Shown here piece after piece: positions 54,280-62,475 of a stretch of 64,000 nucleotides of DNA. Position 1 is the stretch's first letter. Each line of letters begins with the position of its first letter. Both the position numbers and the translations under genes were made by a program. This stretch comes from Aeromicrobium chenweiae (GTDB lineage: Bacteria > Actinomycetota > Actinomycetes > Propionibacteriales > Nocardioidaceae): the NCBI RefSeq assembly GCF_003065605.1, contig NZ_CP026952.1, positions 806,001 through 870,000 of the forward strand, written 5' to 3'. A model generated the notes under the pieces. It saw only the letters and a list, made by a program, of their open reading frames with translations, made no database searches and had not been told where the DNA came from.

Positions 54280-55149
54280 TCAGCGCGGGAAGACCACGAC
54301 CCGGGAACCGTCCAGCAGCAGCCGCTGCTCGGTGTGCCACTGGACGGCCGTCGCGAGCACCTGCGCCTCCACGTCGCGGCCGGCCTGCACCATCTCGTCG
54401 GGCGTCATCCGGTGGTTGACCCGGGTCACGCCCTGCTCGATGATCGGCCCCTCGTCGAGGTCCGGGGTCACGTAGTGCGCGGTGGCGCCGATCAGCTTGA
54501 CCCCGCGGTCGTGCGCCTGGTGGTACGGCTTGGCGCCCTTGAAGCTCGGCAGGAACGAGTGGTGGATGTTGATGACCTGCCCCCGCAGGCGCTGGCAGGT
54601 GGTGTCCGACAGCACCTGCATGTAGCGCGCGAGAACCACCAGGTCGATCTCGAGCTCGTCGACCAGCTCGAGCAGCCGCGCCTCGGCCTCGTCCCGGGTG
54701 TCCGGCGTGACCGGCACGTGGTGGAACGGGACGTCGTACGAGTCGGCGAGCCGCTCGAAGTCGCGGTGGTTGGACACCACCGCCGGGACGACGATGTTGA
54801 GCGCACCCGTGCTCTGCCGGAACAGCAGGTCGTTGAGGCAGTGGCCGAACCGGGAGACGAGCACGAGCGTGCGGTACGGGGCGACCGCCGAGAACAGGTG
54901 CCACGTCATGCCGAGCTCGTCGGCGACCGGGGCGAAGGACTCCCGGAGCTGCTCGAGGGTCACCTCGGCCGCCTCGAAGTGCACGCGCATGAAGAACTGG
55001 TGCCCGAGCCTGTCGTCGAACTGCTGCGAGTCCACGATGTTGCCCTCGACCTGCATGAGCCAGGACGACACTGCGAACACGAGACCCGGACGGTCGGCGC
55101 AGGACAGCGTCAGCAGGTACGTCGGGGGACGCCCCTCGTCGGCCGCCAT
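54280..55149 (-). CDS. purU: Formyltetrahydrofolate deformylase
   Basis: PurU hydrolyses 10-formyl-THF to formate and THF. The 289-residue product has an N-terminal ACT domain (LLTLSCADRPGLVFAVSSW) and a C-terminal formyltransferase fold with NIHHSFLPSFKGA and the Asp in HYVTPDLDEGPII; Asn, His and Asp of the hydrolase site are present. The frame is open upstream across mttB, but ATG 55149 gives the family start, 2 bases after the mttB stop. In this operon it would release THF after methyl groups are oxidised to the formyl level, so the carbon leaves as formate. Confidence 0.93.
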   Translation of the reverse strand: MAADEGRPPTYLLTLSCADRPGLVFAVSSWLMQVEGNIVDSQQFDDRLGHQFFMRVHFEAAEVTLEQLRESFAPVADELGMTWHLFSAVAPYRTLVLVSRFGHCLNDLLFRQSTGALNIVVPAVVSNHRDFERLADSYDVPFHHVPVTPDTRDEAEARLLELVDELEIDLVVLARYMQVLSDTTCQRLRGQVINIHHSFLPSFKGAKPYHQAHDRGVKLIGATAHYVTPDLDEGPIIEQGVTRVNHRMTPDEMVQAGRDVEAQVLATAVQWHTEQRLLLDGSRVVVFPR

Positions 55150-55151
55150 CG

Positions 55152-61011: not shown

Positions 61012-61606
61012 TCGGGCCTCCGGCAGGACCGCCGTCATCGCGTGCGGCGCCATCGCGCAGCCCGTCGCCGAGCTCGTCGCGACGCACGTGTGGCCGGTCG
61101 ACGTCCACCCGCTGCCGCCGTTGCTGCACAACGCGCCACACCTGATCGCGGCCGAGGTCGAGGAGCTCCTGCTCGCGCTGCGACCGGCGTACGGGACCGT
61201 CGCGATCGCCTACGCCGACTGCGGGACGTACGGGGAGCTCGACGCGGTCTGCGAGCGTCACGGCGTCCGGCGCCTGGCCGGGCTGCACTGCTACGACGTG
61301 TTCGGCGGGACCGACCGGGTGCGTGCGATGTTCGAGCAGCAGCCCGGCACGTACGTGCTGACGGACTTCCTGGTGCGGTCGTTCCGTCGCACCGTCGTGC
61401 GTGAGCTGGGCCTCGACCGGCACCCCGAGCTGCGCGACGACTACTTCCAGCACTACACGCGGGTCGTCTGGCTCGCGCAGGAGCCCGACGACGAGCTGCG
61501 TGCCCTGGCCGCGGACGCCGCCGAGCAGCTTGGCCTGCCGCTGACCGAGGTCGACGCCGGGCTGGGTGGTCTGGACCGGTCGATGCGGGCCCTGCTCGGC
61601 GTCTAG
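60947..61606 (+). CDS. DUF1638 family protein
   Basis: The 219-residue protein has the DUF1638 pattern: VIACGAIAQPV, the basic-residue-free PPLLHNAPHLI, YADCGTYGELDAVCERHGVRRLAGLHCYD and FLTDFLVRSF-like TYVLTDFLVRSFRRTV, with conserved Cys and His that may bind metal or corrinoid. Its start overlaps the activator gene by 65 bases; AAGGAGGTG lies 5 bases before the ATG inside that gene, so the overlap is real. The first 27 residues are Ser/Thr-rich and a product of the overlap. The family travels with MttB-type corrinoid systems; its job is unknown. Confidence 0.85.
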   Translation: MSSSRTDRTSTTGSSTSSPSPSRASGRTAVIACGAIAQPVAELVATHVWPVDVHPLPPLLHNAPHLIAAEVEELLLALRPAYGTVAIAYADCGTYGELDAVCERHGVRRLAGLHCYDVFGGTDRVRAMFEQQPGTYVLTDFLVRSFRRTVVRELGLDRHPELRDDYFQHYTRVVWLAQEPDDELRALAADAAEQLGLPLTEVDAGLGGLDRSMRALLGV

Positions 61607-62475
61607 GCCGAGTGCGCGGTCGCGCCGAGCCGGGCCAGCAGCTCCTGGCGCCACGCCTCGGTCTCGGCGACCTGGTTGAACGTGAACAGGTGCAGCCCCT
61701 CGACGTGGGACGCGGGCTCCTGCGTCGTCGGTGCGATGCGCTCGAGGAACTTCTCGGGGCTGAAACCGCCCGGCATCGCGATCCGGGCGAACACCGACTT
61801 GTTCTTGGCCAGGAAGCGGGTCGACTCGCTGACGCCGATCTTGGTGGCCATCGCCAGCAGCTTCGTGCGCTCGACAGGTCCCGGCATCCCGATCAGCAGT
61901 GGCATGACGGCGCCGCGGGAGCGCACGCGCTGCACCCAGGTACGGACGACCTGGGGGTCGAAGCACAGGTTGCTCACCAAGGTGGTGGCGTGGTGCCGCT
62001 TGTCCCACATCGCCTGCACGGTGACGTCGTCGGCGATCGTCGGGTGCGACTCGGGATAGCCGGTCACCCCGACGTGATGGAACGGGCTGCCCATCGCGGT
62101 CAGGTCCTGCAGCAGGTCGAGCGATCCCGCGTAGTCGCCGGCCGGGTCGGCGTCGCCGGCCGGGACGAAGACGCTGTCGATGCCGATCGCGCGGAGGCGG
62201 TCCACGATCTCGGTGAGCTCGGCGCGACCGCTGATCATCCGCGCCGCGAGGTGTGGGACGGCCTGGTAGCCGTGGCCGACGAGCCGCTCGGCCAGGTCCA
62301 GCGTCGCATCCATGCCCTTGCCGGGGGAGGCCGTGACGGTCAGGGTGTGCCCGCGCGGGAGGGACTCGAGGATCTTGTCCTCGATGGACGCCGTGGGCAG
62401 GACCTCGTAGCGAGAGCTCTCGAGCAGCCTGCGCAGCTCGCGTGCCGTGGATTTGTTGCGCATGAGGCAACTCAT
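61603..62475 (-). CDS. MetF-like methylenetetrahydrofolate reductase
   Basis: A 290-residue TIM-barrel protein with the MTHFR blocks LTVTASPGKGMDATLDLAERL, LAARMISGRAELTEIVDRLRA, the Asp-rich VFVPAGDADPAG and VGVTGYPESHP, then SNLCFDPQVVRTWVQRVR. It is more distant from MetF of methionine synthesis, as are those linked to demethylation. In this cluster it would run in the oxidative direction, methyl-THF to methylene-THF. Two ATGs are possible (62475 and 62463). An IclR-type palindrome covers both. It converges on DUF1638, the two stop codons sharing CTAG. Confidence 0.85.
   Translation of the reverse strand: MSCLMRNKSTARELRRLLESSRYEVLPTASIEDKILESLPRGHTLTVTASPGKGMDATLDLAERLVGHGYQAVPHLAARMISGRAELTEIVDRLRAIGIDSVFVPAGDADPAGDYAGSLDLLQDLTAMGSPFHHVGVTGYPESHPTIADDVTVQAMWDKRHHATTLVSNLCFDPQVVRTWVQRVRSRGAVMPLLIGMPGPVERTKLLAMATKIGVSESTRFLAKNKSVFARIAMPGGFSPEKFLERIAPTTQEPASHVEGLHLFTFNQVAETEAWRQELLARLGATAHSA
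62455..62471. promoter_or_regulatory. Predicted IclR operator over the metF-like start
   Basis: GTTGCGCATGAGGCAAC fits GTTGC-N7-GCAAC exactly and spans the start of the metF-like gene. It connects this gene with the choline/betaine regulon 8 kb away. Part of the sequence is coding, so a chance match is possible. Confidence 0.5.

Follow-up and report, generated by a model that had tools for sequence, protein, structure and literature searches.

How an apparently respiratory actinobacterium could take the first methyl group off glycine betaine is the question raised by a gene cluster of Aeromicrobium chenweiae (Nocardioidaceae), which lies in a stretch of 64,000 nucleotides of contig NZ_CP026952.1 (positions 806,001–870,000). 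This whole stretch is called the window below, and coordinates are those of the window unless stated otherwise. Here, genes for a methyltransferase of the MttB superfamily, a corrinoid protein, and their presumed helpers stand next to genes for choline oxidation and betaine import and for a dimethylglycine dehydrogenase (DMGDH)-like protein. We consider it quite likely that the cluster serves the demethylation of glycine betaine as a dedicated and self-contained system. The pathway assignment, which is probably right, is supported by gene context, co-occurrence, and conserved residues.

A corrinoid gene cluster among betaine genes

Genes were called by GC frame in the window and in its flanks from the same genome, and their products were scanned against Pfam and NCBIfam. 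The corrinoid and one-carbon genes, including two genes for IclR-type regulators, occupy positions 53405–62475 and adjoin the betBA–opuA, DMGDH-like, and etfBA genes. The features are as follows.

55152–56591, minus strand: MttB-superfamily non-pyrrolysine methyltransferase, proposed MtgB-like glycine betaine:corrinoid methyltransferase (479 amino acids; PF06253, 611 bits)
57523 or 57538 to 58188, plus strand: corrinoid protein, MtgC-like (PF02310 and PF02607; GDVHDIG, matching DxHxxG)
58217–59101, plus strand: methyl-tetrahydrofolate (THF):corrinoid methyltransferase of the MetH/AcsE type, MtgD-like (PF00809; PRK07535, 292 bits, cut-off 259)
59101–61011, plus strand: RACo-type ATP-dependent reductive activator (N-terminal [2Fe-2S] Fer2 domain and RACo linker, middle, and RACo_C_ter domains)
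61088–61606, plus strand: DUF1638 accessory protein, start uncertain (PF07796, 78.5 bits)
61603–62475, minus strand: MetF-like protein (MetFL), proposed methyl-THF oxidase (PF02219, weak, 34.9 bits)
54280–55149, minus strand: PurU, formyl-THF deformylase (TIGR00655, 326.6 bits, cut-off 286)
56768–57526, plus strand: regulator IclR2, at the head of the corrinoid operon (PF01614 and PF09339)
53405–54229, minus strand: regulator IclR1, separating the module from betBA (PF01614)
51804–53285, minus strand: BetB, betaine-aldehyde dehydrogenase (best NCBIfam model TIGR01804, 625 bits, slightly below the cut-off of 669)
50092–51807, minus strand: BetA, choline dehydrogenase (TIGR01810, 835 bits, cut-off 732)
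46044–50095, minus strand: OpuA-type betaine/choline ATP-binding cassette (ABC) importer, comprising the ATPase OpuAA (49061–50095, above the proV cut-off), the fused permease OpuAB (47034–49064), and the binding protein OpuAC (46044–46988)
43357–45873, minus strand: DMGDH-like protein with flavin adenine dinucleotide (FAD) and GcvT domains (best PDB match N,N-dimethylglycine oxidase 1pj5, 538 bits)
42600–43355 and 41620–42603, minus strand: EtfB and EtfA (PF01012, PF00766)

The cluster consists of two divergent transcription units and, at its far end, the MetF-like gene. The plus-strand unit runs from IclR2 through the corrinoid protein, the methyl-THF methyltransferase, and the activator to DUF1638, and the minus-strand unit from MttB through PurU, IclR1, BetB, BetA, OpuAA, OpuAB, OpuAC, and the DMGDH-like protein to EtfB and EtfA. 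The BetB, BetA, OpuAA, and OpuAB genes overlap by four bases each, and the MetF-like gene is convergent with the DUF1638 gene, the ends of the two overlapping. The initial annotation, made from the letters alone, had named PurU, MttB, the corrinoid protein with its DxHxxG motif, the methyltransferase, the [2Fe-2S] activator, DUF1638, and the MetF-like protein, flanked by betA/betB, a betaine importer, and a DMGDH-like protein with EtfAB. Pfam and NCBIfam placed all of the former where it had put them, and profile and PDB matches did so for the latter; the two IclR regulators, which it had not mentioned, belong to the cluster as well. Its methyl-THF:corrinoid methyltransferase is now refined to the PF00809 (PRK07535) class of the MetH/AcsE type. 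Desulfitobacterium MtgA is described as having no sequence identity with proteins of solved structure (PMC7154762) and may therefore belong to a different class. The best PDB match of the activator was 3zyy (337.6 bits). The MttB reading frame is uninterrupted, with no in-frame amber stop, so the protein contains no pyrrolysine, as had been proposed; its score against the pyrrolysine model TIGR02369 (275.8 bits) is likewise below the cut-off of 525.

In the pathway that we propose, OpuA would bring in choline or betaine, and BetA and BetB would convert choline to betaine. The MttB-like enzyme would then transfer one betaine methyl group to the corrinoid that the MtgC-like protein carries as Co(I), leaving dimethylglycine, and the MetH/AcsE-type methyltransferase would pass this group from the corrinoid to THF, so that the net first step would be glycine betaine + THF to dimethylglycine + methyl-THF. 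The RACo-type activator, together with DUF1638, is predicted to regenerate Co(I) after oxidation. The MetF-like enzyme would oxidize methyl-THF to methylene-THF, the DMGDH-like enzyme with EtfAB would take off the second methyl group, likewise onto THF, and PurU would release formate from formyl-THF. The initial annotation had proposed the same route; context, co-occurrence, and residues speak for it, whereas we infer the chemistry itself, that is, the substrate, the direction of each step, the electron acceptor of MetFL, the role of DUF1638, and function in air.

The gene set is well conserved in relatives. In the best 80 of at least 587 related loci, which came mostly from Nocardioidaceae and other Actinobacteria and many of which end early, searches with the window proteins identified IclR2 in 79 loci, the MtgC-like protein in 77, the methyltransferase in 73, the activator in 71, IclR1 in 67, DUF1638 in 63, MetFL in 56, OpuAA in 53, BetB in 52, BetA in 49, PurU in 48, and DMGDH in 28. 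When the loci with at least 6 kb of flank on the bet side were considered (65 of 80, 15 being dropped; thresholds of >300 bits for BetA, >350 for BetB, and >250 for DMGDH), 63 encoded BetA, BetB, or DMGDH, 60 of them on that side, and loci without betAB (e.g., L039, L060, L069, L075–L077, and L080) retained DMGDH–EtfAB. On the other side, among the 58 loci with at least 6.5 kb (22 shorter ones being dropped), IclR2, MtgC, the methyltransferase, and the activator were present in every case, DUF1638 in 55, and MetFL in 52. This clustering is far beyond chance. The PurU gene (54280–55149 in the window; L005–L084), located between MttB and IclR1, is often in the orientation opposite to that in the window, and was not found in 32 of the 80 loci, some of which are short.

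The same association was seen across whole genomes. In a sample of 197 Nocardioidaceae genomes, MttB occurred in 64 and DUF1638 also in 64, namely in 63 of the 64 genomes with MttB and in 1 of the 133 without it, which ties DUF1638 closely to corrinoid methyl transfer. MetFL at 54% identity or more was found in all 64 genomes with MttB and in 6 of the 133 others; this threshold was set on the listing of matches, 150 genomes matching in total, with 7 in a second tier at 37–45% and the remaining ones among those listed mostly at 24–32%. MttB-family proteins of any kind were found in 49 of 296 genomes of a phylum-wide sample. In terms of the DUF1638 sequence itself, D44-C45-G46, C55, and C68 are invariant in 51 sequences, and its structural model is confident and has no clear fold match.

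Relation to known demethylation systems and the MetF-like enzyme

The proposed B12-dependent betaine demethylation is not a first for aerobes. The initial annotation had assigned the characterized MtgB-type systems to anaerobes, which holds for Desulfitobacterium; however, aerobic betaine demethylation by MtgBCD, with RamA and DUF1638, has been published for Ruegeria pomeroyi (PMC12478193). According to that account, mtgC and mtgD mutants do not grow on betaine, and a second MetF is produced during growth on it; the mtgBCD genes frequently lie together, in several marine proteobacteria close to genes for later steps of betaine breakdown, and form one complete cluster in S. meliloti; MetH coexists with MtgBCD in some genomes; and 5% of ocean mtgC reads fall to Actinomycetota (PMC12478193). 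The window shares with the R. pomeroyi system, as described, an aerobic host, an MttB homologue, a corrinoid protein, and a methyl-THF methyltransferase, RamA-like and DUF1638 helpers, a second MetF paralogue, and the substrate proposed here. In contrast, MtgC and MtgD double as a split methionine synthase in R. pomeroyi, whereas the window genome has a full MetH and no MtgE-like protein, and PurU, two IclR regulators, and a MetF of the type of PDB entry 7xg9 are part of the window cluster, a comparison that draws on the published description of the R. pomeroyi system. What is new is the actinobacterial version, with its S6MTHFR-like MetF (see below), its own PurU and regulators, and a genome with a complete MetH, together with the putative exchange of its front end described in the last section. 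With it, the aerobic use of betaine by B12 chemistry would no longer be confined to marine proteobacteria but would reach many Actinobacteria, in the form of a dedicated operon beside a separate MetH.

The genome holds three homologues of methylenetetrahydrofolate reductase (MTHFR), one of which is MetFL. At the canonical positions, numbered as in E. coli, the actinobacterial MetFL proteins keep the canonical Glu (52 of 53) and Asp (53 of 53), and the Gln of the canonical ITQLFF motif is replaced by Asn in all 53. The best PDB match of MetFL is 7xg9, a 5,10-methylenetetrahydrofolate reductase (107.9 bits, versus <18 for the other MTHFR chains listed), which we take to be S6MTHFR of Sphingobium SYK-6. 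S6MTHFR has been reported to oxidize the methyl-THF produced by LigM (PMC12585457). Both in that pair from Sphingobium lignivorans SYK-6 and in the window as we read it, a demethylase supplies methyl-THF to a divergent MetF that runs oxidatively; the front end is a folate-only O-demethylase there and would be a corrinoid N-demethylase here, and the Asn of the ITQLFF motif further sets the actinobacterial proteins apart. We therefore propose MetFL as a methyl-THF oxidase, a direction that the residues themselves do not dictate. The chloromethane cmu pathway of an aerobe likewise passes a corrinoid-bound methyl group to THF and then, through MetF2, FolD, and PurU, to formate, but from another methyl donor and with another methyltransferase family. 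GbcAB and BHMT catalyze the same overall step, betaine to dimethylglycine, but depend on oxygen or homocysteine, respectively. A literature search confined to open-licence papers found none joining Nocardioides, glycine betaine, and trimethylamine methyltransferase, and among the papers listed by a looser search on related terms none mentioned Nocardioides; this is weak evidence of absence. The third MTHFR-like protein of the genome (G000:C1:1615192–1616274; L185:5193–6275) has a Cys-containing N-terminus (MTFGPCGG), and its trimmed frame gave no Pfam match at 1e-5.

Substrate of the MttB-like protein and alternative first steps

Identity of the MttB-like protein to the glycine betaine methyltransferase 9yce is 42%, and the window cluster would share with the MtgABC system of the anaerobe Desulfitobacterium hafniense (2qne/9yce) the betaine:corrinoid:THF logic. 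Residues Y94, N199, R309, and H345 of Desulfitobacterium MtgB are predicted betaine contacts, from docking rather than from a bound structure (PMC6855144). All four are kept in 81 of 81 actinobacterial orthologues. The same pattern also occurs in 4yyc, which we take to be a Sinorhizobium meliloti protein, in plasmid proteins of Paracoccus and Rhizobium, and in eight proteins of the phylum sample, whereas one or more of the residues are altered in second copies in L060 and L072, in L142–L144, and in proteins of Leisingera, the S. meliloti plasmid pSymA, and a Cereibacter plasmid.

Several observations weigh against assigning betaine as the substrate and the module as its main route. Where MtgB has a predicted aromatic contact, at position 353, all 81 orthologues have Gly, with a Trp at 349 instead, which speaks against identical pockets. 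Y94 is lost in the paralogues L143 and L144, both of which adjoin DMGDH-like genes, so retention of all four residues does not cleanly mark a betaine context. The tree places the actinobacterial clade apart from the one MtgB sequence included, and the corrinoid protein scores far below the NCBIfam MtgC cut-offs (205 vs 370 and 158 vs 310 bits). Two of the 65 loci (L011 and L040) have no BetA, BetB, or DMGDH in their stretch. Finally, in one relative (L135; G479:C16:188000–207000, positions 6988–9440), a GbcA-like protein (437 bits, cut-off 670) and a GbcB-like protein (348 bits, cut-off 500) are encoded directly next to the MetFL–DUF1638–RACo–MttB module, which therefore need not be the sole first step there.

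Other routes for the first methyl group were searched for in the 3.7-Mb genome, a single contig that is 99.99% complete. Six Rieske matches were obtained, five of which were scanned with NCBIfam: two small ferredoxin-like proteins, a bc1 subunit, which suggests a respiratory host, an FAD-oxidoreductase hybrid, and a carbazole-dioxygenase-like protein, the only long ring-hydroxylating Rieske protein of the genome. None of these five fits GbcA, the sixth (L087, 165 amino acids) having been read but not scanned; GbcB had no match at E ≤ 1e-60; and the only PF02574 protein is a complete MetH including its activation domain, so that neither BHMT nor, by the same search, a free-standing homocysteine methyltransferase domain (MtgE-like) was found. 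The absence of GbcAB and BHMT noted initially for the window thus extends to the genome, as far as searched.

The features of the MttB-like protein bear on whether it acts instead on another quaternary amine (carnitine, proline betaine, or choline), the betaine genes then processing the product or sharing regulation. The diverse substrates described for MttB-superfamily members (PMC8604678), the replaced aromatic residue, and the imperfect marker value of the four kept ones leave room for such an activity, as does a Paracoccus relative (47% identity) that adjoins a carnitine 3-dehydrogenase and a 3-keto-5-aminohexanoate cleavage-type protein on a plasmid also encoding an activator, a methyltransferase, MetF, DUF1638, and a corrinoid protein. 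However, carnitine degradation by the route of the Paracoccus locus would itself end in betaine, and the presence of BetA, BetB, or DMGDH in 63 of 65 loci, the retention of DMGDH–EtfAB where betAB are missing, and the invariance of the four predicted betaine residues make a different substrate unlikely.

Two further explanations accept the chemistry but give the module another role. The corrinoid protein and methyltransferase could serve chiefly in methionine synthesis, by analogy with the split enzyme of roseobacters: for R. pomeroyi, both jobs are ascribed to MtgC and MtgD (PMC12478193), and Phaeobacter is reported to need its RamA-like and DUF1638 genes for growth without methionine, which rescues the mutants (PMC5764234). 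We regard this as highly improbable, because a separate MetH, complete with activation domain, is the one protein of the genome found to have a homocysteine methyltransferase domain, so that methionine synthesis should not depend on the module, and because the module lies among betaine genes. Alternatively, the module might be a low-oxygen or stress back-up, an unrecognized oxygen-dependent enzyme taking the first methyl group in air. Co(I) corrinoids are sensitive to oxygen, a GbcAB-like pair stands next to the module in one relative, and the module was found in just three sampled genomes of the genus, A. chenweiae included, and is thus dispensable. Within the family, too, GbcAB-like genes and the corrinoid module do not exclude each other, since MttB is also present in 6 of the 15 genomes that encode a GbcB-like protein (in each case below the cut-off). 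Nevertheless, GbcA, GbcB, and BHMT were not found in the genome as searched, and R. pomeroyi provides an aerobic precedent, so we consider a mere back-up role rather improbable. A dedicated glycine betaine demethylation system accordingly remains the reading that we prefer.

Some observations on these loci are noted separately. At L135, the next genes resemble, by eye and unscanned, GlyA and sarcosine oxidase subunits, so that perhaps two betaine routes occur at one locus. L144 (G302:C87:1–18000, positions 4715–13296) carries another corrinoid module, divergent from the first, in which genes for MttB, MtgC, DUF1638, a methyltransferase, an activator, and a DMGDH-like protein are accompanied by one, placed between them, for a small protein of 109 amino acids. 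The FAD oxidoreductase-like protein of A. chenweiae (G000:C1:423983–425512; L090:154–1683) is fused to a C-terminal Rieske domain.

DmdA-like proteins in loci without MttB

The six family genomes with MetFL and without MttB pointed to a second type of locus. Five of them encode a DmdA-like protein of the GcvT family with at least 74% identity to L136:6468–7772, and in the sixth, a fragmented assembly, DUF1638 is located next to MetFL. Close DmdA-like proteins occurred in 6 of the 197 family genomes, none of which has MttB, and, at 71% or more, in 21 of 364 genomes of the order of G595. In four genera (g199, g204, g219, and g220), the MttB and DmdA-like forms are both present, in different species. 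Of the 27 close loci, 26 were retrieved (20 of 21 from the order and 6 of 6 from the family), two of them shorter than 7 kb. These encode MetFL in 24 cases, IclR2 in 19, IclR1 in 18, DMGDH in 16, EtfB in 15, and BetAB in 3, and MttB, the corrinoid protein, the methyltransferase, the activator, and DUF1638 in none of the 26. Among the matches listed, 16 haloarchaeal plasmid records reached at least 56%; in four of these that were inspected (57–66% identity), a MetFL-type MTHFR (35–38%) was present in three and DMGDH-like genes in two.

This distribution suggests, tentatively, that the actinobacterial betaine operon has exchangeable front ends that supply methyl-THF to the same MetFL, either the corrinoid module or a DmdA-like glycine betaine:THF methyltransferase. 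The exchange pattern would make the module in the window one of two exchangeable suppliers of methyl-THF from betaine, and we consider this scenario quite possible. The exchange, for which gene context is the evidence, would be more novel than the corrinoid operon: a single folate-type protein would take the place of a five-protein corrinoid module while the surrounding gene scaffold stays the same, which makes a missing step of actinobacterial choline and betaine breakdown directly testable. If the scenario is true, Actinobacteria and haloarchaea would possess a betaine demethylase with no need for oxygen, cobalamin, or homocysteine. To our knowledge, direct transfer from a quaternary ammonium compound to THF has no precedent, which speaks against a betaine function. 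A betaine role for a GcvT-like protein of SAR11 has been mentioned as a speculation (PMC3160333), and our literature search found no demonstration of such a role.

A competing explanation, somewhat doubtful in our view, is that the DmdA-like protein demethylates a sulfonium compound such as dimethylsulfoniopropionate (DMSP), its proximity to MetFL and DMGDH reflecting shared one-carbon handling only. Its best NCBIfam model is indeed the DMSP demethylase NF009133, though the three members scored (248–256 bits) lie below the cut-off of 410, and a homologue in Loktanella (41%) has genes for an acyl-CoA synthetase and an enoyl-CoA hydratase as neighbours. Furthermore, G303, G317, and G325, which are among the six family genomes encoding the protein, carry a GbcB-like reductase elsewhere, below the cut-off, so that another first step may be possible there, a point that counts against the betaine function too. 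Against this explanation stand the DMGDH, EtfB, and BetAB genes and the IclR1- and IclR2-type regulators counted above in the 26 loci, and the occurrence of the DmdA-like protein in place of MttB in different species of the same four genera. As a separate observation, a formate–THF ligase is encoded next to MetFL and the DmdA-like gene at L138:9853–11571; PurU was not found within the 15-kb stretch of that locus, and formyl-THF there might serve ATP synthesis.

Elsewhere in the window, positions 13490–25141 and 28772–38600 encode two tandem α-L-rhamnosidases of approximately 1930 amino acids, followed by an ABC-transporter ATPase, a rhamnose mutarotase, an aldolase/short-chain-dehydrogenase fusion, and an FGGY kinase. 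Judged from the genes outside 30277–33430, these regions probably form a rhamnose-use cluster.

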